Origin: Methanobacteriota archaeon
GTDB lineage: Archaea; Thermoplasmatota; Poseidoniia; Poseidoniales; Thalassarchaeaceae
Assembly: GCA_002712575.1 (NCBI GenBank)
Contig: PATZ01000029.1
Location: 9,395-19,977 of the forward strand
Direction: 5' to 3'
DNA: 10,583 nucleotides
Part shown: one piece after another, positions 1-10,583 of the stretch
Position numbering within the stretch: position 1 is the stretch's first letter
Layout: every line of letters begins with the position of its first letter
The notes under the pieces: model-generated
What the model was told of the DNA's origin: nothing
Databases searched by the model: none
Seen by the model: only the letters and a program-made list of their open reading frames with translations
Translations under genes and position numbers: made by a program

Positions 1-2696
1 TTCAAACATTCGAAATGACTAACGCACTTAGGGCACGTTGTCAACATAATATCTGCTCCAGTGGCTTTTACTTCATCAAATCGTTGTAATCTCAAACCTC
101 TGCTGTTTTCATTACATGACATCATACTTGATACTCCACAACACAATCCATCTTCTTTATTATGCTCCATTTCAACAAGACTGACTCCTTCTACGGATTG
201 TACTAAGTCTCTAGGCTCATCATAGATATTCATCTGTCTACCTATTCTACATGGATCATGATATGTTACTGTAACATCTTCTTCGGTTTGTAATTCCATG
301 TCAAAACCCTTCTCGGTCAGATATTCAGTAGTGTGCATGACCTTCATATCATCTAGTTCATAGTCTAAAGCAAATGTTCTGAAACATTCTGCACATGAAG
401 TTACTAAAGTGTCTATTCCACTTTCGCCAATTTTCTTTTGGTTGTACTGTTTTAATTTTTCAAAAACTTCTGTCAATCCCTGCCACTTCTGGTCATGACC
501 ACAACATTTCAGAAAATCTCTTCCCAAGTATGTCACTTCTTGACCTAGTTCTTCAAATAGAGTAAAAGCAGCAGTTGTAGTTTCCCCAAGATTCATTGTT
601 CCTTCATTAACATGGCTAAAAATCATTTCCTGATCTATGTAATCTACACAACCAGGATAATATCCAACATTTGAATCAATCGGATAATCTTCTGTCGAGA
701 TAAATGCTTCCTCTTCGTCTGCTTCAGCAGCTAATACTGCTTGTAAAACGGTATGTGGTATTTCAGCAGCTGGAGGTCCTCCTACTATCAAATTCCTTCT
801 AATGTCGACATATGAATCATAATCAACTAATTGAGGGCAAGCATTAGTACATGCACTACATGTCAAACATGAATACAGTGGAACTCCATCGTCTTCATTA
901 TTCCATGTATTGTAGATTATATTCAATTTATCTCCTGCGTTAAACAACCTTACAGGACATGCATCATCACATAAGTCACAACCATAACACTTATTCATTT
1001 CCCATTCATATCCTCTTGCCATGCTGCGCATTAACATAAAGACCATTGCTCCCACTCCTAGGCAGGGAATAAATAGTGAATAAATCAATTTAGCATCCAG
1101 ACTTTTAGGATTTTTATGATAAGTAGGATTTTTAACCGCCATCTCTTCTATTTCTTGAATAGTTAGAGTGCTGTCTTCTCTAATTAATGCTGTACCATCT
1201 TCAGCCAATATCAACGGTTGATATGCTATTGCATTATAGTCTGTAATCATAGAAATAGTTTCATTGATCCCTGATGATGTTGTACTGTAATGCAAAATAT
1301 ACGATTCTCCAGAATCTAAATAAATTGTTTCAGTAGTACAAGAATTACCTTCCATATTCCATATGTTCTCTCCTAAGGAGTTTTCTAAACTCATACTTTG
1401 ACTATGCGTCCCAACGCCGTAAGTAGATGTTCTAAAGTTACATCCTATGTCTGTTGGAATTCTATCTACTCCCAAGTCTTCTATAGTGAATGTTTTAGAT
1501 TCTGAAACTGTTCGCTCGAGATTATTAGTATCGCCATTATATGTGAATTCGGACACAGCAGTATTCCTATTTGTTTCAGGATCAGCATGCCCATTAACTC
1601 CTGCAAAATCAATTATTTTATATTTAGTTGGTTGATAAATTCCCCAATTGACCCAATTAGAAGCCGTAATTACACACCAATCTTCATAATCTTCTACTTC
1701 AATTGCCTCCCATACAGATAGCCCAGCGGTTTCAGAATAAGGCAAACAATCATCTTCCCATGCTTCCCATACATTTCCTTTTCCATAATGAACTAAGGTG
1801 TCTTCCGGCTGTTCTTTCATCTCATCTAATTGAGATATACTATCCATTGCACCAAGCCCACCATAATTCCAAAAACCTCCTTCATAAATAGGCCATGTCG
1901 CGGTAGAAATAAGAACCGTTATTATCAAAGTCCCAATTGTAATTTGTTTACCTATCTTTGGATTGACACGGGCTCCCATAGTATTTAGCAAAAATTTTCT
2001 TATTACAAAATAAAGTACTACAAATAAGAAAATTGCCGTTAAAATCCAAGGTATTGCATTAAAAATTGTTGCCGTCCATGGAGCCTGTCGGCCACAGAGA
2101 AAGTTTTGATGTGAATCTATAAAGCAATAGTTAGTCAAATCTTTTGCATACAATTCTAAAAATATATTAATTGAGAAAACAGATATAAACCATACATGCG
2201 CCAAATATGCGGCACCAGCACTTGCAAACCATGGATCTTCAACTCCTCTCTTTTCTCTTTTTCCAATAATGAAAGGAGGTAATGCCAGAATTGCCACTGG
2301 AATACCTGTTATGGCAGCACCCCACCATGCAGCATTCCAGTAAATGAATGGTTGACCGAAGAAATCCCCAATAGGTCCTGCGGGTATTGTATATTGAGGC
2401 AAATATTCTCCCCATCTTAGATATCCATAAGAAAATAAAACATACCAATCAGGAAACACGAATCCGGCTTGTGCAAAAGGATCTGCAGCACTGTGTAATG
2501 GAGGAGGTACGATCCATGAGTAAAAACATATTACCATAATCATACTTGCAAAGATTATTGTATCTCTCAATACTTCTGTTGGCCAAAAAGAATGACCAAC
2601 AAAAACCCTTCTCCTTTCTTGTTCTGCTTCAACAAGTGCATCCCTTTCACTGATATAAGTATCAGCAATCCTTCCAAACCTATCTAATAATCCCAT
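1..2696 (-). CDS. PetD-like cytochrome b C-terminal half fused to HdrD/GlpC-like Fe-S (CCG) module, partial
   Basis: One uninterrupted frame of 898 codons that runs off the left edge, so the C-terminus is missing. The start at 2696 is fixed by TAAGGAG eight bases upstream, lying on the cytochrome b stop codon. Residues 40-232 resemble cytochrome b6f subunit IV: helix at 47-63, quinol-site motif PDWY at 82-85 (PEWY in most families), then helices near 122-144, 158-182 and 211-232. A further helix (251-267) leads to an extracytoplasmic domain of about 270 residues with Cys317, 341, 419 and 453 and no CxxCH. A last helix (537-556) followed by Arg residues returns the chain to the cytoplasm. There follow two ferredoxin motifs (C570/573/576/580 and C610/613/616/620) and two CCG domains (C683, CC731-732, C768/C771; C816, CC852-853, C888/C891), as in HdrD, GlpC and related thiol or flavoenzyme partners. 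Domain assignments are strong; the substrate of the CCG module is unknown. Confidence 0.9.
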   Translation of the reverse strand, partial: MGLLDRFGRIADTYISERDALVEAEQERRRVFVGHSFWPTEVLRDTIIFASMIMVICFYSWIVPPPLHSAADPFAQAGFVFPDWYVLFSYGYLRWGEYLPQYTIPAGPIGDFFGQPFIYWNAAWWGAAITGIPVAILALPPFIIGKREKRGVEDPWFASAGAAYLAHVWFISVFSINIFLELYAKDLTNYCFIDSHQNFLCGRQAPWTATIFNAIPWILTAIFLFVVLYFVIRKFLLNTMGARVNPKIGKQITIGTLIITVLISTATWPIYEGGFWNYGGLGAMDSISQLDEMKEQPEDTLVHYGKGNVWEAWEDDCLPYSETAGLSVWEAIEVEDYEDWCVITASNWVNWGIYQPTKYKIIDFAGVNGHADPETNRNTAVSEFTYNGDTNNLERTVSESKTFTIEDLGVDRIPTDIGCNFRTSTYGVGTHSQSMSLENSLGENIWNMEGNSCTTETIYLDSGESYILHYSTTSSGINETISMITDYNAIAYQPLILAEDGTALIREDSTLTIQEIEEMAVKNPTYHKNPKSLDAKLIYSLFIPCLGVGAMVFMLMRSMARGYEWEMNKCYGCDLCDDACPVRLFNAGDKLNIIYNTWNNEDDGVPLYSCLTCSACTNACPQLVDYDSYVDIRRNLIVGGPPAAEIPHTVLQAVLAAEADEEEAFISTEDYPIDSNVGYYPGCVDYIDQEMIFSHVNEGTMNLGETTTAAFTLFEELGQEVTYLGRDFLKCCGHDQKWQGLTEVFEKLKQYNQKKIGESGIDTLVTSCAECFRTFALDYELDDMKVMHTTEYLTEKGFDMELQTEEDVTVTYHDPCRIGRQMNIYDEPRDLVQSVEGVSLVEMEHNKEDGLCCGVSSMMSCNENSRGLRLQRFDEVKATGADIMLTTCPKCVSHFECL

Positions 2697-2708
2697 TACA
2701 AAATCTCC

Positions 2709-3575
2709 TTAATGTGGTTCAGCAATCCCTTGTACCCAAACGATAAATAGATGAATAAGAATTAATGTTGTAACCAATACAGGCAAAATGAAAACGTGTA
2801 AAAAGTACATTCTTGTGACAGTTTGGCCTGACAATGTAGTTCCTGCAAACAATGCATTAGCCATCCAATCTCCGATTAAAGGTGTCGCAGTTGCCATATT
2901 GATTCCAATCGTCGCAGCACCAAACGCCAAACTATCCCATGGTAGCAAGTATCCTGAGTATCCAAAGAAGATCACGAAAAACATCAAGGCTACTCCAATT
3001 AACCAATTTAATTCTCTTGGATTACGATATGCTCCTGTAAAGTATACTCTACACATGTGTAAGAATACTGCTGCAACCATAAAATGTGTAGTCCAATGAT
3101 GTATTGAACGAATAATATATCCAAACGGTAAAGTGGTCATAATAAATTCCATACTACTATATGCAGGAGTTGGATCACCCTCTCCTCCAGGGACATAATA
3201 TAATCCGAGAATACTTCCTGTTATCACTAATATTATGAAAGCTAAGAATGAGATTCCTCCTAAACAATATAATGGATACCAATACCATATTATTCTTAAT
3301 TTGTATTTTTCAGCATGAGTGAGTGGCATCTGCCTATGGACGCTGTGGAATGCATCCCTACTCATTCCCCAATAGTCCTGTATTCTAAATCTAGTATCTA
3401 ACCATGAAAATGCCCATAAGAATATTTTTTCTGAAAATCCCATTTCACTGGCATTAGATTCTACAGCTCTTAGAATATCTTTTCTAGGCATATCATCTCT
3501 TTCCTTTCGCAATGTAAATGCAACTATAACAACAACTAATGCTATAAATAGCCACAAAAACCAAAATTGAATCAT
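2709..3575 (-). CDS. Cytochrome b, b6-type N-terminal half
   Basis: Carries the four-helix heme-binding core of a bc/b6f complex and ends after helix D, so the cytochrome b is split as in b6f. An added N-terminal helix (about 2-22) precedes the core. Heme ligand pairs are H159/H260 and H173/H275. Fourteen residues separate the two helix-D histidines, the b6f spacing, against thirteen in bc1. C104 in YCLGGIS matches the cysteine of plant b6 (YCLGGIT) that covalently binds heme ci. The LPWD and PRELNW segments are also b6-like. The protein should take electrons from quinol, sending one to the Rieske cluster and one across the membrane through the two b hemes. The start at 3575 has GAGG upstream, and that site overlaps the Rieske stop codon. 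The second half of the cytochrome lies 12 bases downstream in the PetD-CCG fusion. Confidence 0.95.
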   Translation of the reverse strand: MIQFWFLWLFIALVVVIVAFTLRKERDDMPRKDILRAVESNASEMGFSEKIFLWAFSWLDTRFRIQDYWGMSRDAFHSVHRQMPLTHAEKYKLRIIWYWYPLYCLGGISFLAFIILVITGSILGLYYVPGGEGDPTPAYSSMEFIMTTLPFGYIIRSIHHWTTHFMVAAVFLHMCRVYFTGAYRNPRELNWLIGVALMFFVIFFGYSGYLLPWDSLAFGAATIGINMATATPLIGDWMANALFAGTTLSGQTVTRMYFLHVFILPVLVTTLILIHLFIVWVQGIAEPH

Positions 3576-3584
3576 CCTAATACC

Positions 3585-4436
3585 TCATCCACAATATGCA
3601 TACCAATCTTTGAAATCAGGCAATGCTTCTACTACATCACCATTGACTGTAAAAGGTATTAGAGGCATTCCATTTGGAGCAGGGCCTCCGGTTTTTCTGA
3701 TTCCAATAAACTCAAATGGAACACCTTTACCCATGCTATTTTTTTCAATAGCAGTGGGATCGAATCTGCTAGAATGACATATGCAAAAAAGCTTATCTCC
3801 GCCTTCATCAGTTCCACCTGCTGCCCATGTATCTCCGGTGTAATTATTAGTAACTAACTGCCATCCTGGTATACAGCATAAGTGAGGGCATCTTGAGAAA
3901 ATAATTACCATATTGTCATGAATGGATAATGAACTGTATGTATCATCGTCTTCCACTTCTCTTCCAGAACCGATGTATTTTCCTCCAAGATCATACCCAT
4001 CTAAGTATTGAAATCTAGGTTTATCAGACTGGGGAGGTAAATCTTTATTTTCTTCATGAGGAACATAAACAACGTTAACCGGAAGTCCTGACCATACTCC
4101 TTGAGCACCTATCATACCTGTATTTGTGGCAGCTGCTGCTGTTTGAAAAGAACTATAATTCATCGGTTCTAAGTGCTTATCTCCGTACCATGAAGTATCT
4201 TCTGCTCCCGAAGGAACCCAAAATCTTACGGCAGTATCTCCTCCATCAGATTCTGGTTGCCCCATCAATAATGCGGCAAACCCTACACTACCTAAACTAG
4301 CCATAGTGATTAGTCCTGCTGCCGTATTAAATGATAACCTCATAAATTCTCTTCTATCTATCATTTTGATAGATTCATCCTCTACATCAGATTGCGAAGG
4401 AATAGGACGTAATTTAAACTTTCTAGCCATCGTCAT
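3585..4436 (-). CDS. Rieske [2Fe-2S] iron-sulfur protein of a bc/b6f-like complex
   Basis: Electron acceptor from quinol on the outer face of the membrane. Residues 27-34 (DRREFMRL) are a twin-arginine motif followed by one hydrophobic helix (about 37-59), as in Tat-exported Rieske proteins that stay anchored by their signal. The cluster boxes are CPHLCC (C183 and H185 ligands, C188 for the disulfide) and CICHSSRFD (C218 and H221 ligands, C220 for the disulfide). An extra cysteine, C187, replaces the glycine of the usual CTHLGC. The boxes are separated by a long Gly/Asp/Thr-rich loop. The first ATG overlaps the upstream stop as ATGA, but GAGG sits only two bases before it and eight bases before the second ATG (4430), so MARKF is the likelier N-terminus. 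The gene is followed after 9 bases by cytochrome b. Confidence 0.95.
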   Translation of the reverse strand: MTMARKFKLRPIPSQSDVEDESIKMIDRREFMRLSFNTAAGLITMASLGSVGFAALLMGQPESDGGDTAVRFWVPSGAEDTSWYGDKHLEPMNYSSFQTAAAATNTGMIGAQGVWSGLPVNVVYVPHEENKDLPPQSDKPRFQYLDGYDLGGKYIGSGREVEDDDTYSSLSIHDNMVIIFSRCPHLCCIPGWQLVTNNYTGDTWAAGGTDEGGDKLFCICHSSRFDPTAIEKNSMGKGVPFEFIGIRKTGGPAPNGMPLIPFTVNGDVVEALPDFKDWYAYCG

Positions 4437-4882
4437 GCCTCATATTTTTTCCATGCTTCAGTATCATTCTTAGTTATATATTTGTTTCTTCTGTGCTTTA
4501 CAACAACAACATCCGGCATTACATATTTTAAATACACAATTCCCATTATTATTAAAGTAAGTAATGTCATTCCTAAATTAAATGCAAGAATTTGTTGATC
4601 CCAGCGATTGTAAAGTCCATATGATAAGGAACCTGACCAAAATAATGTCCAAAGTATCCCCCATAATCCTACCAGAATTATCAACCACGAATCTCCTGAT
4701 GGCGAGATACTTGCTCTCACAATAGTGCCAGGTTTTGGCATATTAAATACACCATGATCGACCGCCTTTGTATAATTCTCTTCCGATAAATCCACACCTT
4801 CCAAGGCATCTCTAGCCTCTTCAACTGTTATTTTTCCGCTACTGACGTCTCGCAATAGTTTCATTACAACATCGTCTTTCAT
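4433..4882 (-). CDS. Small two-helix membrane protein of the bc-like operon, function unknown
   Basis: A 149-residue protein I cannot assign to a named family. Residues 1-45 are acidic and soluble. A short helical stretch at 8-30 (LRDVSSGKITVEEARDAL) resembles the C-terminal SHOCT or short-oligomerisation helices that begin with G-x-I-T/S-x-E-E-A, but here it lies at the N-terminus. Two membrane helices follow at about 66-90 and 98-122, then a basic tail (KHRRNK), so both ends are probably cytoplasmic. It overlaps its neighbours by four bases on both sides (ATGA), and GAGGTGATC lies upstream of its start. Strict coupling between the CTCH protein and the Rieske gene suggests a structural or assembly subunit of the complex. 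That role is inferred from position only. Confidence 0.8.
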   Translation of the reverse strand: MKDDVVMKLLRDVSSGKITVEEARDALEGVDLSEENYTKAVDHGVFNMPKPGTIVRASISPSGDSWLIILVGLWGILWTLFWSGSLSYGLYNRWDQQILAFNLGMTLLTLIIMGIVYLKYVMPDVVVVKHRRNKYITKNDTEAWKKYEA

Positions 4883-5697
4883 AATTGATCACCTCTTCGG
4901 AGGTGTTTAATTCTTAGTCTTAATAGATTACTACGGCCTTCATAATGCCTTGAAAAACCGTATCTCAAGAAAAATCCGCAAAATACAATCACTAAAATTA
5001 CTGCGCCAAAACCGAGAAGACCTAGCCAATGCGCTCTTAATTTAGCTCCCATGTGGTGTAGATCAACTTCCTCATTTATTGGTGCAGGGGGATTTATATC
5101 TCCATTCCCAGAAAAAATTGTTCTTGTTTTCCCATTATCCTCACCTTCTTCTAGAGTGACACTTAATCTATTCCATCTATCTAAAGCTGAAGGTATTTGG
5201 TCGCCATTGACCGAATTTCCAACAAGCCAGATTGTAACTGGTTCTTCTTCGCTAGCTTCTGGAGAAGTCCAAATAAGATTCCAAGCCCTATCTTCGGTTT
5301 CTGACCCAGATGAAGTGTGAGTCAGGGTACTTTCATCACCTTCCCAATTTTGAACTAAGTTTTCATATCCTTCTGCTGCCGATAGAGTACCACTACTGAC
5401 TCTAATAGAAAAACCTCCTGTTTGCCCTCCACTTAATATGTCTGGGCCACCAATTAATTGGATTTTCATCTCATAATTTGTATTTGTTGAATAATGATAA
5501 GGCACTCCATCTAAAACTATGGTTACCGAATTATCGGGCTCGGAAGCATGACAAGTACATCCCGCAATTGTAACATCTCCTTCATTATTGACATCTCCTC
5601 CAACGCCAGAATGTAATGCTTGACTAGTGCCAGCAATAAACATCAAAATTAGGCTCAAAACCATGAGTCTCTTAGAGAACAAATCCAACCCTTGCAT
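4879..5697 (-). CDS. Secreted, membrane-anchored protein with CTCH motif, first gene of the bc-like operon
   Basis: A 272-residue type I membrane protein. It has a signal peptide (basic KR at 9-10, hydrophobic core 11-24, likely cleavage near SQA 25-27), an extracytoplasmic beta-rich domain, one helix at about 222-243, and a very basic cytoplasmic tail (RLRIKHLRRG). The order of elements resembles the choice-of-anchor V/Reeler-like group: a CxxCH-like site soon after the signal, a Gly-rich GGFSIRV strand, an HTS segment, a W-x-x-x-WTSPEA segment and a GNSVNGD turn. The site here reads CTCH (47-50), one residue shorter than a c-type heme motif, so heme binding is uncertain. No cytochrome c1 or f gene is present, and this protein occupies that place in the operon. 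The start at 5697 has AGAGG upstream. Confidence 0.8.
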   Translation of the reverse strand: MQGLDLFSKRLMVLSLILMFIAGTSQALHSGVGGDVNNEGDVTIAGCTCHASEPDNSVTIVLDGVPYHYSTNTNYEMKIQLIGGPDILSGGQTGGFSIRVSSGTLSAAEGYENLVQNWEGDESTLTHTSSGSETEDRAWNLIWTSPEASEEEPVTIWLVGNSVNGDQIPSALDRWNRLSVTLEEGEDNGKTRTIFSGNGDINPPAPINEEVDLHHMGAKLRAHWLGLLGFGAVILVIVFCGFFLRYGFSRHYEGRSNLLRLRIKHLRRGDQL

Positions 5698-6173: not shown

Positions 6174-7082
6174 GTGGACCGAAGTACCATATTGATATTA
6201 GGTGCTGGAGGGATAGGTTGTAAGTGGGCTACAAAAGCACATTATAGATGTCCCGAAGGTTCTGCCGATTTACTTCTAATTGATGTCGATAAAGAATCAT
6301 TTTCAGATGCACACGCTGCACATTGTCTCCAGCTATCTTTGGGCGATGAAGACAAAGGTTCTGCTACTCTAAGGAGGATGGCCAAACATCGTTTAAACGA
6401 TGGAATTGGTGATTTTCAGTCATTATTTAATGATTCAGAATTGGTTATAATATTGTCAGGATTAGGGGGAGGGACCGGTTCTGGAATTTCTGCTGAACTA
6501 GCCACCATTGCTAAAAATTCAGATAGCGTAGTTATTACTATTGTTGGTTTACCCTTTGCTGAACAACCCTTTCGCTCTACTATTGCTAAGGATGTTCTAC
6601 CCGAAATAGATAACGCTTCAGATGTATGCATAAAACTTAGTATGGAAAGACTTGCATGGCAGGCAAGAGACCGTAAATCAGACTGGGAATCAGGATCAGA
6701 GTGGATAGAAGAATTAGTAGAAGGTTTAGTGACTACATTGTCCAAGGTAGGAAAAATAAATCTTGATTTGATGGATCTAAAGTCAATAGTCGGTAAGCCA
6801 GGAAATGCTACCTTGGTCGTTGGCACTGGCCTAACTGATGAGCCAGAAAAAGTTGTAAGAGTTGCACAACAATCTCCTCTTTATGATATAGATGTCGAAG
6901 GGGCAAAAGGCTGCTTAATACAAGTTGAAGGTGGACCAGATATGACATTATCACATTTAAATTTAGTTTCCGATGGCTTCTTATCAGTTTTAGATCCTGA
7001 TTGTCAAGTTATTTTGGGTGCTCGTTCTAGCGACGAAATGATCGGTAAACTTCGATTAGTTGCAGTCCTTAGCGGACTTTAA
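6174..7082 (+). CDS. FtsZ-family GTPase, compact and divergent
   Basis: A cytoplasmic GTPase of the tubulin/FtsZ superfamily, 302 residues. Residues 6-17 (ILILGAGGIGCK) form the N-terminal nucleotide-binding loop, equivalent to GGGGCN in FtsZ. GLGGGTGSG at 96-104 is the tubulin signature loop. NLDLMD at 196-201 is the T7 loop that supplies the catalytic aspartates, and both Asp residues are kept. The C-terminal domain matches FtsZ in the GAKGCLIQVEGGPDMTL segment and the DPDCQVILGA strand. It ends right at the folded core, with no disordered tail or C-terminal FtsA/SepF-binding peptide. The sequence is more divergent than a typical archaeal FtsZ1 or FtsZ2, so a paralogue with a regulatory or shape role is possible. 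The start is GTG at 6174. The stop abuts that of the convergent membrane protein gene. Confidence 0.88.
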   Translation: MDRSTILILGAGGIGCKWATKAHYRCPEGSADLLLIDVDKESFSDAHAAHCLQLSLGDEDKGSATLRRMAKHRLNDGIGDFQSLFNDSELVIILSGLGGGTGSGISAELATIAKNSDSVVITIVGLPFAEQPFRSTIAKDVLPEIDNASDVCIKLSMERLAWQARDRKSDWESGSEWIEELVEGLVTTLSKVGKINLDLMDLKSIVGKPGNATLVVGTGLTDEPEKVVRVAQQSPLYDIDVEGAKGCLIQVEGGPDMTLSHLNLVSDGFLSVLDPDCQVILGARSSDEMIGKLRLVAVLSGL

Positions 7083-8227: not shown

Positions 8228-8515
8228 ATGGGACGAGTTTCTAAAGTCGCAAGAGGCAAGCACCGATGGATTGGAGTTAGAGGGGATAAAAGATATGAAT
8301 CAAGAGGAGAATTGATGGACATTATTTCCGATATTCTTGAACAATGTGAGTGGAGATTATATGATGTCAGATTTATCGATCAAATGTGCTTTTTCATTAT
8401 TAAAACACAACTACAAGATTATGAAAAATCACTCAATCTTATCAATTCACATAATTCATTTGAAACATTAACTAGTTCAGGTAAAATCAATCGAATTAGA
8501 GAAAGAATATTTTAG
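8228..8515 (+). CDS. rnp2: Probable RNase P protein component 2 (Pop5/Rpp14 family)
   Basis: A small basic protein of 95 residues. The pattern fits archaeal Pop5: an N-terminal basic segment leading into a first strand (KHRWIGVRG), a conserved SRGEL-type helix start (here ESRGELMDIISDILE), a central strand with LYDVRFI, a strand CFFIIKT followed by a helix that in Pop5 reads VRAALALI (here YEKSLNLINSH), and a C-terminal TSSGKINRIRERIF equivalent to the G-x-SGTI-x-x-A motif. Pop5 pairs with Rpp30 and helps the RNase P RNA cut tRNA precursors. Identification is by pattern only, since this family is poorly conserved. The ATG at 8228 is preferred over an upstream TTG (8198) that would overlap the divergent gene. 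Its stop overlaps the convergent ligase gene by three bases. Confidence 0.6.
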   Translation: MGRVSKVARGKHRWIGVRGDKRYESRGELMDIISDILEQCEWRLYDVRFIDQMCFFIIKTQLQDYEKSLNLINSHNSFETLTSSGKINRIRERIF

Positions 8516-9864
8516 TGCATAAAAAATTTCCAATCTATTTTTTCCAAATCGGTAATATTAATTGTTTCACGATTGCCCAAAATATCTAATCCTCCACCTT
8601 CTGAAATCCCAATTATTCTAAAGTTATTTTTTTTGTATTTTATTGTAACTCCTCTTGAAAATATTTGTGAAAGTGCCTTCCATGATAGACTTTCCATTTC
8701 TTGAGAGCTTATGTCAGGTAATAGATAATGTTCTTCAAGATTTGAAGAAAGAGCAACATCTACCATCTTATAGATTTCGATATTTTCCATTTCACCTAAT
8801 GTCTCATCCCATCCAGAAGATGTGAATAATTCCTCATTAGTTCTTTTTGTTCTGTTGATGCCTACGCCTACTCTCAAAGACTCATCTTCACTATCTGATT
8901 CAATCAATATTCCTCCCATTTTTCTGAAGTCATTACTCAATAGGTCGTTTGGCCATTTTAGTCCAATTTTTAATAGACTAGCAACTGAAGCACCAACAGT
9001 AATCTGTAATATGCCAGGCGAGATTTCTTCGAGAATAGTTTTTGGTATTTTCCATGTTGCCACCATATCACCATCAATGGATTGCCAATCGGTATTTCTT
9101 CTTCCCCTGCCCTTAGTCTGATTTTTTGCCATTATTCTGTTCCAATATTTATTGTCAACTTTCTTCAATTCATCCATAGTGCTCTCACACTCATCAATAA
9201 CTATTGGCATACTATTTCCTCCTGGTTTCCAAAATGCGTGAACTTCTAGTTTTTCATCGCCTATTATTTCTTCAGTAATTTTTCTTCCAGACCATCCTTT
9301 TTCTTTCCATAACTCAGGTGTGCTATTACTTTCGGGAAACGTTCTAAAAAGTAACATTACTAAACACTCATCAGAAATTTCACACATCTCCAAAGTATCA
9401 CTTAATTTTTTATTCCATCCTCCATTTTCCAGATCTAAATAAGCTGCATCTTCAATATATTCTAGTTTATTTGCTTCTTCAACTATCGGATTTAAATATG
9501 GTAAATTCCAAATAATGATGTCAATTTCATCTGAAATATTTATATTTTCACCAATTCCACCTTCTTCTATTGATATTGAATTTTCTAGATTATACTTCTT
9601 TACATTTCCTCGAGCACTAGAAACAGCATATGGATTTACATCATAAGCTAAGACCTTCCATCCCAATGTTGCTAATAGCATTGACAAAGCTCCTGACCCG
9701 CACCCTATTTCTAGAGCTAAACCTTGATGTTTTTTCATTTTTAATATTGCATTTGCCATCAGATAAGTATCTTCTCTTGGAGGGTATACTGTCTTATGGG
9801 TTTCTAAATTCCAATCACAAATATTTTTTATCTGAAATTTATTCTGTTTAAATGGAAAATCCAT
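8512..9864 (-). CDS. Fusion of HemK2/Mtq2-like methyltransferase and biotin-protein ligase
   Basis: Two enzymes in one 450-residue chain. Residues 20-215 are a class I methyltransferase: VYPPREDTYLM (26-36), SAM-binding LEIGCGSG (51-58), acidic YDVNP (74-78) and NLPY (120-123). NLPY stands where glutamine N5-methyltransferases have NPPY. Together with the YPPREDT start this points to the HemK2/Mtq2 group that methylates the GGQ glutamine of release factor aRF1. Residues 217-450 are a biotin-protein ligase: DECESTMDEL (substrate-entry strand), QTKGRGRRN (249-257, biotinyl-AMP loop), KWPND (303-307), and RKMGGILIE (314-322) containing the catalytic lysine K315. There is no N-terminal DNA-binding domain, so this is a ligase only, acting on biotin carrier domains of carboxylases. 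AAGGAC lies upstream of the ATG at 9864. The fusion shows no internal stop or frame break. Confidence 0.9.
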   Translation of the reverse strand: MDFPFKQNKFQIKNICDWNLETHKTVYPPREDTYLMANAILKMKKHQGLALEIGCGSGALSMLLATLGWKVLAYDVNPYAVSSARGNVKKYNLENSISIEEGGIGENINISDEIDIIIWNLPYLNPIVEEANKLEYIEDAAYLDLENGGWNKKLSDTLEMCEISDECLVMLLFRTFPESNSTPELWKEKGWSGRKITEEIIGDEKLEVHAFWKPGGNSMPIVIDECESTMDELKKVDNKYWNRIMAKNQTKGRGRRNTDWQSIDGDMVATWKIPKTILEEISPGILQITVGASVASLLKIGLKWPNDLLSNDFRKMGGILIESDSEDESLRVGVGINRTKRTNEELFTSSGWDETLGEMENIEIYKMVDVALSSNLEEHYLLPDISSQEMESLSWKALSQIFSRGVTIKYKKNNFRIIGISEGGGLDILGNRETINITDLEKIDWKFFMH

Positions 9865-10149: not shown

Positions 10150-10583
10150 ATGGCAGTAAAAAGTTCAACAAAAAAACGGCTAATAGAACTAGGAGTTCCT
10201 GAAGACAGGGCACACAAATTAGCCGATGATGCTAATATGGACGCTATTAAAAGAATGACTGTAGAACAAGTTGCTAAAAAAGTAGATCTTGAGATGGGTA
10301 GTGCAGATTTGGAACTCATCATGGGAGTCATTAGGGAACAAATGGCATCTAGAAAGAGGAGTAGAAGCGGTAGAATTACCATTTCTAGAAATGCTTTATT
10401 GGACGAAGACATCCCTCAAGGAGAAGATCGATTTAATGTATTGAACCATATTTTAGTTCCTCATCATGAATTAGTACCAATTGAAGATGAAGAAAAGGTA
10501 TTATCACCATGGAATTTGATGGAAAAGGATTTTGAAGGAAATAATAGACTTGCAAAAGAACTTTTACCAAAGATATTGATTAC
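10150..10583 (+). CDS. rpoH: DNA-directed RNA polymerase subunit H with N-terminal extension, partial
   Basis: The window holds the first 144 codons; the rest lies beyond the right edge. Residues 94-144 match the start of archaeal RpoH, the equivalent of the C-terminal assembly domain of eukaryotic Rpb5: FNVLNHILVPHHELVP, then an acidic helix, then LAKELLPKILI leading into the expected TDP. RpoH sits at the jaw of RNA polymerase near incoming DNA. Archaeal RpoH is normally only about 80 residues and begins close to the VLxHxLVPxH motif. Here about 90 extra residues precede it: a helical domain (about 5-65, including RLIELGVPEDRAHKLADDANM) that could be a helix-hairpin-helix or similar fold, and a basic linker (ASRKRSRSGR, 66-75). 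The ATG at 10150 agrees with the TATA box. In related archaea rpoB and rpoA follow. Confidence 0.85.
   Translation, partial: MAVKSSTKKRLIELGVPEDRAHKLADDANMDAIKRMTVEQVAKKVDLEMGSADLELIMGVIREQMASRKRSRSGRITISRNALLDEDIPQGEDRFNVLNHILVPHHELVPIEDEEKVLSPWNLMEKDFEGNNRLAKELLPKILI

Follow-up and report, generated by a model that had tools for sequence, protein, structure and literature searches.

We analyzed a 10,583-nucleotide stretch of DNA (the window; positions 9,395 to 19,977 of contig PATZ01000029.1, assembly GCA_002712575.1) from a member of the Thalassarchaeaceae (Poseidoniales) that encodes a Rieske/cytochrome b complex (complex III) in which subunit IV continues, within one open reading frame, into two [4Fe-4S] sites and a pair of CCG domains. 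We lean toward reading the operon as encoding a complex III that incorporates, on its cytoplasmic side, an electron port at the inner (Qn) quinone site; the port would probably serve the transfer of electrons from ferredoxin to quinone. The first element of this reading, a module on the cytoplasmic face that is wired to the quinone site, we consider likely; the second, inward flow from a ferredoxin-type donor, seems to us about evenly balanced. That the operon belongs to complex III follows from its contents, which include a cytochrome b with two bis-His sites, a subunit IV with a PDWY motif, and a Rieske protein with both cluster boxes.

The fused subunit and its membrane topology

The fused gene occupies window positions 3..2696 on the minus strand as a single open frame of 898 residues that leaves the window at its edge; in the parent contig the full fusion has 927 residues (L008:9307-12090), with its last 29 residues and the stop codon at L008:9307 falling outside the window. 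From the N-terminus it consists of subunit IV, an inserted pair of transmembrane (TM) segments with an outer domain, TM helix H, two [4Fe-4S] sites, and two CCG domains. Residues 1-185 (2142..2696) form the cytochrome b C-terminal or subunit IV core, with helices E, F, and G and the PDWY motif at residue 82. Pfam has no match to the N-terminal half at 0.01; a 14-row profile of this half matches solved C-terminal domains of cytochrome b (2qjp, 1.3e-12) and subunit 4 of the b6f complex (2e74, 2e-9). The insertion (residues 186-536; 1089..2141) comprises two TM segments and about 260 residues and is found, among the sequences examined, only in Poseidoniales forms; its linker (residues 271-536) is 27-63% identical in 20 relatives. 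The last TM segment, equivalent to helix H, spans residues 537-555 (1032..1088) and is followed by the conserved junction YEWEMNKC.

The cluster module begins immediately thereafter. Residues 564-622 (831..1007) carry the two [4Fe-4S] motifs, CYGCDLCDDACP (from residue 570) and CLTCSACTNACP (from residue 610), and models of two-cluster ferredoxins align to residues 566-622 (Fer4_9, 2e-7; Fer4_8, 5e-7). PF02754, the CCG family, matches twice (4.7e-23; best stretch 810-895, second at residues 704-775). CCG domain 1 (384..650) has cysteines at 683, 731, 732, 768, and 771 (PGC, KCCGHD, CAEC), the five ligand positions of the Hdr type, and CCG domain 2 (24..251) has cysteines at 816, 852, 853, 888, and 891 (HDPC, CCGVSSMM, CPKC). 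Two extra cysteines accompany the second domain, Cys 861 (114..116; CCGxSSMMxC) and Cys 897 (6..8; CPKCxxHxxC), all of these features lying on the minus strand. The fusion reaches the cut-off of no NCBIfam model, and no flavin or NAD family was found in it or in the scanned proteins of the operon.

A simple 19-residue hydropathy scan predicts six TM segments in the window protein, with PDWY after the first. If the N-terminus is inside, six segments bring the clusters inside as well; moreover, PDWY must face outside, toward the Qo site, from which it again follows that helix H ends, and the clusters lie, on the inner side. Positive charge is present in the loop after TM F (GKREKRG) and in the stretch preceding the clusters (RSMARG). 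The same scan gives six segments in 17 of 21 Poseidoniales sequences (five in L070, L077, and L078, and seven in L075), and four in each of the simpler fused forms L061-L066, with three in L068 (six of these seven giving four). L053 has seven, three of which precede its subunit IV part, and among nine unfused sequences five give four, two give three, and two give five. On these grounds the clusters are predicted to lie, likely, on the cytoplasmic face of the membrane.

A preliminary description of this DNA, made from its letters alone, had proposed a single frame joining the PDWY-bearing half of cytochrome b to two ferredoxin clusters and two CCG domains, which the frame, the profile, and the domain matches bear out. 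It had recognized the fusion and overlooked the two extra TM segments and the outer, fast-evolving domain of about 260 residues between helices G and H. Its placement of the clusters in the cytoplasm, near the inner quinone site, agrees with the likely arrangement derived here from the segment count and the side of PDWY.

Conservation and distribution of the fusion

Searched with residues 1-270 of the fusion, 94 of 99 genomes of the family give a match, and in 84 of these 94 the open frame is at least 900 residues long (including G071, in which the N-terminal part is broken). Among the remaining 10, three frames leave the contig (L013, L024, L141) and two are broken in the linker (L022, L140). 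The order-level search matches 58 of 60 genomes, including the single-contig genome G099, and the phylum-level search 97 of 292; profile matches, weak ones included, extend to 174 of 389 genomes. The counts for the family and the order rule out misassembly or chance as the source of the fusion. The breaks in G009 (L022) and G094 (L140) fall at differing places in the fast-evolving linker, with the cluster part still conserved, and we take them to be assembly errors or recent breaks.

Comparison with L070, a relative of the f2 family, gives identities of 77% for the cluster module, 78% for cytochrome b6, 62% for subunit IV, 50% for the Rieske protein, and 27% for the linker; the cluster part is therefore the best conserved part of the chain. 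This conservation, together with the retention of most ligands in all sequences examined, makes it very improbable that we are dealing with an ordinary complex III in which the clusters have a structural part or are a vestige, even though unfused relatives carry at the place of the clusters a tail such as YExKLNxxYYKxR and evidently function without clusters.

Across relatives we distinguish five architectures. Unfused subunit IV proteins end in a tail of the kind just described (YxYDLNxRYYRLR in the Halobacteria). L108 has subunit IV with the two [4Fe-4S] sites only, with no CCG domain seen downstream. In the Marine Group III type and in L112 the CCG pair is encoded by a separate, adjacent gene, and both [4Fe-4S] sites remain in the subunit IV chain. 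Everything is in one chain, without the insertion, in L065/L090, L066/L091 (cut), and L053/L109; these single-chain forms and the form with clusters alone come from Thermoplasmatota outside Marine Groups II and III. The Poseidoniales form, finally, is a single chain with the two additional TM segments and the outer domain of about 260 residues between helices G and H. Relatives are thus not consistently of the two-gene kind, with a stop between the halves, as had been named beforehand as the outcome that would speak against a fusion. In all nine printed cluster-bearing sequences, from six lineages, the junction YExx[LM]NxC stands at the same place after helix H, and it aligns with the tail of the unfused forms.

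In a tree of 47 sequences, from which the cluster columns and the column of the heme c_n cysteine (see below) were omitted, Marine Group II, Marine Group III, L053, L108, and L112 form a clade (96/87), and L065/L066 stand apart. The cluster trait requires two changes on this tree, that is, one origin with a loss or two gains, between which the tree does not distinguish; several long branches make placements unsure. We ruled out the fusion in the sampled halobacterial phylum, where 26 of 196 genomes match and the 22 strong matches are frames of 261-331 residues; three of these that were read (L115, L126, L127) lack clusters, and the eight that were fetched of 10 weak second copies are full-length cytochromes b without a cluster motif. 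The scan of genome contigs used two strict peptide patterns, which do not establish absence from bacteria and other archaea; viral contigs gave no match. An apparent bacterial case, L107 (NZTZ01000011.1, 'Chloroflexi bacterium EAC10'), was rejected, since the operon it carries belongs to the Marine Group III type; it is probably a mis-binned contig.

The heme c_n cysteine

The gene adjoining the fusion (2709..3575, minus strand; PF00033, 8e-42) encodes a cytochrome b6-like subunit with two His pairs, with 13 and 14 residues between their members, and the pairs of both bis-His heme sites are kept in the alignment. It also has a cysteine in the motif WYPLYCLGG, which we take to occupy the place of b6 Cys35, where heme c_n is attached. 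WYPxYCLGG is present in 25 of 25 Poseidoniales sequences read, and heme c_n itself is predicted. In L065 (788-3613) and L053 (8086-9975) cytochrome b6 itself bears long N-terminal domains, by eye Ig-like and extracytoplasmic.

A survey of 71 sequences found the cysteine together with clusters in 31, clusters without the cysteine in 13, neither in 12, and the cysteine without clusters in five, with 10 unreadable. In four of the five cysteine-only sequences (L013, L022, L024, L140), all from Poseidoniales, a contig end or a frame break truncates the gene, and L118, among the 12 with neither trait, is a cut gene of the Marine Group III type. The cysteine occurs in 31 of 44 cluster-bearing sequences and, after removal of cut genes, in one of 12 truly unfused ones (L060), so the cysteine appears to accompany the clusters. 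An independent-pairs test of the association found two pairs and had no power.

Ligands of the CCG domains and kinship to Hdr and EtfD

The closest solved relative of the cluster module is mycobacterial EtfD (9ojn, 7.6e-22; by profile 6.2e-37), with weaker profile matches to HdrB (3.1e-8) and HdrC (6.6e-6). In EtfD, also called EMO, the same four cluster sites form a chain that leads to heme b and menaquinone; as in the module described here, two cubane and two CCG-bound clusters bridge a cytoplasmic donor and a membrane quinone. According to the available part of the report on its structure, a Thr replaces one Hdr cysteine in the first CCG site, a His caps the second cluster, which is termed non-catalytic, and the authors propose that electrons from the cytosol run cluster by cluster to menaquinone from an entry point not known (PMC13083937). 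The membrane part of EtfD is a five-helix, NarI-like heme b domain (PMC13083937); in the fusion it is of the cytochrome b C-terminal type, and the CCG motifs are KCCGHD and CAEC in place of a non-Cys at the second CC position of CCG domain 1 and the His-capped CPHC.

With two [4Fe-4S] sites and a pair of CCG motifs of five Cys each, the window protein resembles HdrD, and the Poseidoniales sequences share this set with HdrDE and HdrBC. Hdr models nevertheless score far under their NCBIfam cut-offs, and the membrane part is of the subunit IV type, with no HdrE-type cytochrome as partner. We surveyed the ligands in 42 distinct sequences selected by motif, a selection that missed L080, among others. 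The second cysteine of CCG domain 1 is kept in 27 of the 42 and is Ser in the other 15, which are of the Marine Group III type; CAEG is found in five (L068, L095, L100, L103, L112), and one is unreadable there. All five positions are Cys in 22 (20 Poseidoniales sequences, L053, and L065). The two extra cysteines (CCGxSSMMxC and CPKCxxHxxC) are present in 42 of 42 and occur in neither of the two EtfD-type proteins that the window genome encodes. The separate CCG genes of the Marine Group III type (for example L061:5484-6371 and L068:6423-8024) have lost one cysteine of CCG domain 1 in two ways, as KCSG with CAEC or as KCCG with CAEG.

These features raise the possibility that the CCG pair is an Hdr-like active site coupling a cytoplasmic disulfide/dithiol, either a thiol cofactor or its own extra cysteine pair, to the quinone pool. 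The five-Cys CCG domain 1, the CAEC in place of the capped CPHC, the extra cysteines in all 42 sequences, and the profile matches to HdrB and HdrC would all suit such an enzyme. An intact Hdr site is not universal, however, given the 15 sequences that lack the second cysteine and the five others with CAEG, and the usual neighbor is a ferredoxin (see below). To our knowledge, these archaea have no CoM/CoB system. We consider a thiol/disulfide enzyme unlikely.

Kinship to EtfD suggests another source of electrons, in which an EtfD-like module would be fed by ETF or by another soluble dehydrogenase. EtfD is the best solved relative, and the window genome encodes one ETF pair. Yet the genome has two separate EtfD-type membrane-FeS-CCG proteins (L002 and L003, on G000:C8 and C19; motifs GCSG and CPHC), one of them adjoining what appears by eye to be an acyl-CoA dehydrogenase, and by eye no flavoprotein was recognized beside the operon in L008, the flanks of relatives not having been scanned for them. 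A flavoprotein port thus appears quite improbable, and of the donors proposed in the preliminary description (thiol/disulfide, lactate, glycerol-phosphate, and ETF chemistry) ETF is the least needed, since a single ETF pair is already matched by two EtfD-type proteins.

The probable ferredoxin partner and the direction of electron flow

Downstream of the fusion, outside the window, lie genes for an RnfB-like 8Fe ferredoxin (L008:8633-9022) and for a membrane protein of 94 residues. The best NCBIfam model for the ferredoxin is RnfB, at 46.9 bits (cut-off 68.7), and nothing else in the window genome matches this ferredoxin. Within the stretches fetched, 36 of 44 loci with CCG domains have a ferredoxin gene (20 of 23 fused, 16 of 21 separate) versus none of 27 loci without CCG domains seen, four of which are cut by the contig (L013, L024, L118, L141) and many of which have short flanks. 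Seven of the eight misses stop at the contig or locus end (L022, L063, L065, L066, L092, L104, L116); that in L070 is real. In L113, which duplicates L069 and is not among the loci counted, a ferredoxin-like stretch lies in a frame of 1182 residues several kilobases off.

Two genomic observations bear on the source of electrons. POR is present in six of six genomes searched, and PF01512, the NADH module of complex I, gave no match in four Poseidoniia genomes and matches in both outgroups. The available portion of PMC6336850 lists cytochrome b, Rieske, and RnfB for Marine Group II (MGII; Ca. Poseidoniales, to which the window almost surely belongs) without other Rnf subunits, and describes an MGII-specific complex III instead of a canonical bc1 complex. 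The RnfB reported there is probably the ferredoxin found here beside the operon.

The Rieske protein (3585..4436, minus strand; CPHLCC ... CICHSSRFD) has both cluster boxes; it has no Pfam match and reaches 29.6 bits with TIGR01416, under the cut-off of 97.4. In place of the Tyr adjoining the cluster, 16 of 23 Poseidoniales sequences and all printed sequences of the Marine Group III type have Phe, and the Rieske protein of L065 has neither the Ser nor the Tyr. Loss of this Tyr or Ser lowers the potential of the Rieske cluster, and hence the driving force.

We propose the following path. The neighboring RnfB-like ferredoxin, charged by 2-oxoacid:ferredoxin oxidoreductases, would be the most likely donor to the CCG clusters, from which electrons would pass over the two cubane clusters to heme c_n and heme b_N and reduce quinone at the Qn site. 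The quinol could then be re-oxidized at the Qo site, with electrons leaving via the Rieske protein toward O2. The complex would in this way act as a ferredoxin:quinone reductase coupled to a Q cycle that pumps protons, and would resemble b6f engaged in cyclic electron flow. We favor inward flow on four grounds: a source of ferredoxin exists, the search for the NADH module gave no match, many of the Rieske proteins are without the Tyr that raises the potential, and electrons are proposed to run inward in EtfD. The evidence supports the earlier suggestion of a second entry or exit for electrons beside the inner quinone site.

Flow in the opposite direction would split the electrons at the Qo site, sending one to the Rieske protein and O2 and the other via b_P, b_N, c_n, and the clusters to reduce ferredoxin or another low-potential carrier. 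The anatomy is of the same kind as in the proposal for NAD(P)H formation in anammox bacteria, with a b6-like cytochrome b, a subunit IV, and a cytoplasmic cluster chain (described in the available part of PMC12954380), and a ferredoxin is the usual neighbor. This direction is nonetheless doubtful, as POR already supplies reduced ferredoxin and the Rieske Tyr is often Phe, with the effect on potential given above, whereas anammox Rieske proteins exceed +300 mV (PMC12954380). No more probable is a bifurcating reductase in which the low-potential electron would exit via heme c_n and the fused clusters to an Hdr-type site that is open and bears the two cysteines specific to the family, so as to make reduced ferredoxin or a cytoplasmic dithiol. 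If that were the case, complex III would make a low-potential reductant besides the proton gradient, paid for by the electron going to O2.

Several observations weigh against a ferredoxin-fed port at the Qn site. L108 has clusters with neither CCG domains nor a ferredoxin neighbor, and the near-complete genome G099 also lacks a ferredoxin next to the operon. The 13 cluster-bearing sequences without the c_n cysteine are all of the Marine Group III type and have Ser there, and on the tree the cysteine and cluster traits each change only twice, which reduces their association to one or two events. The Hdr-like ligands without the EtfD His cap, together with the two extra cysteines, would fit thiol/disulfide chemistry better than mere wiring. 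The hydropathy scan miscounts some sequences (five segments in L070, L077, and L078, seven in L075, and four in only five of nine unfused forms). Entry of ferredoxin electrons at complex III would be wasteful of energy if complex I accepts ferredoxin. Finally, MGII is credited with a canonical complex I in the available text of PMC6336850, which weakens the argument from the missing PF01512.

Relation to known systems

The idea of a cytoplasmic electron port on complex III is partly in print already. In Ca. Angelarchaeales, hdrD-like and rnfB-like genes beside complex III led to a proposal of ferredoxin entry in 2022 (PMC9038741). Like the organism studied here these archaea belong to the Thermoplasmatota, and the cytochrome b/Rieske complex has the same two partners, an HdrD-like module and an RnfB-like ferredoxin, both of which we find with the window operon. 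The genes are described there as proximal to the complex, and the available part of the paper mentions no fusion to subunit IV; 'Poseidoniales' and 'Marine Group' are absent from its main text (PMC9038741). An AmoC probe meant as a marker of Angelarchaeales matched none of 14 controls and none of 10 genomes, and no record with Angelarchaeales in its title is among the 30 loci from the scan of genome contigs.

The second precedent is provided by the anammox Rieske/cytochrome b complexes Kuste4569-4574 and Kustd1480-1485, which have a cytoplasmic NAD(P) module. They share with the present operon a b6-like cytochrome b, a separate subunit IV, and a cytoplasmic multi-Fe-S module reached via heme b_N/c_N; they differ in that the module ends in FAD/NAD(P) rather than CCG domains, in being bacterial, and in having multiheme cytochromes c on the positive side (from the portion of PMC12954380 available). 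No cytoplasmic FAD/NAD(P) module was found in the fusion or in the scanned proteins of the window operon. With these two cases in print (PMC9038741, PMC12954380, as far as their available parts go), the preliminary statement that no such case was known does not stand as worded.

The cytochrome b6f complex likewise has a split cytochrome b6 and subunit IV and a Cys at the c_n place, and subunit IV of the window differs in having a further helix H. In b6f an inner entry of electrons is assumed, and there is no fused cluster module. In the literature covered, from which subscription papers are mostly missing, we came across no account of this fusion or of its distribution, nor any of the c_n cysteine or the Hdr-like ligands; the main text of PMC6461757 contains none of the words 'Rieske', 'heterodisulfide', and 'ferredoxin'.

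Marine Group II archaea abound in oceans worldwide, and the operon could account jointly for the two peculiarities reported for them, a complex III specific to MGII and the presence of RnfB where the other Rnf subunits are missing (in the available part of PMC6336850). If the proposed port exists, it would constitute a natural, covalently wired electron entry at the inner quinone site and would offer a new system in which to test the debated role of heme c_n and that of cyclic flow through b6f. The fusion further illustrates the way in which complex III and dehydrogenase modules can join to form a single machine.

Other genes of the operon and the window

Two further genes on the minus strand belong to the operon and, like those for the cytochrome b6-like and Rieske proteins, lie upstream of the fusion. 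One (4433..4882) encodes a small membrane subunit, conserved in the operon, with a weak match to DUF7318 under the cut-off. The other (4879..5697) encodes a choice-of-anchor V protein (NF041895, above cut-off) with a GCxCH motif, a candidate electron carrier outside the membrane. GCxCH is present in printed sequences of the Marine Group II and III types, and CxxCH in L060 and L108; perhaps GCxCH is an unusual c-heme site that replaces cytochrome f/c1.

Outside the operon, the window encodes a short FtsZ-family protein of 302 residues (6174-7082, plus strand), matched by both FtsZ/tubulin Pfam domains, and a single frame (8512-9864, minus strand) combining a HemK/PrmA-like methyltransferase with a biotin-protein ligase domain. 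RNA polymerase subunit H (Rpb5; 10150-10581, plus strand) and subunit A'' (named by eye; L009:6945-8513, plus strand) have similar N-terminal extensions of about 80 residues, which are 37% identical over 81 residues.

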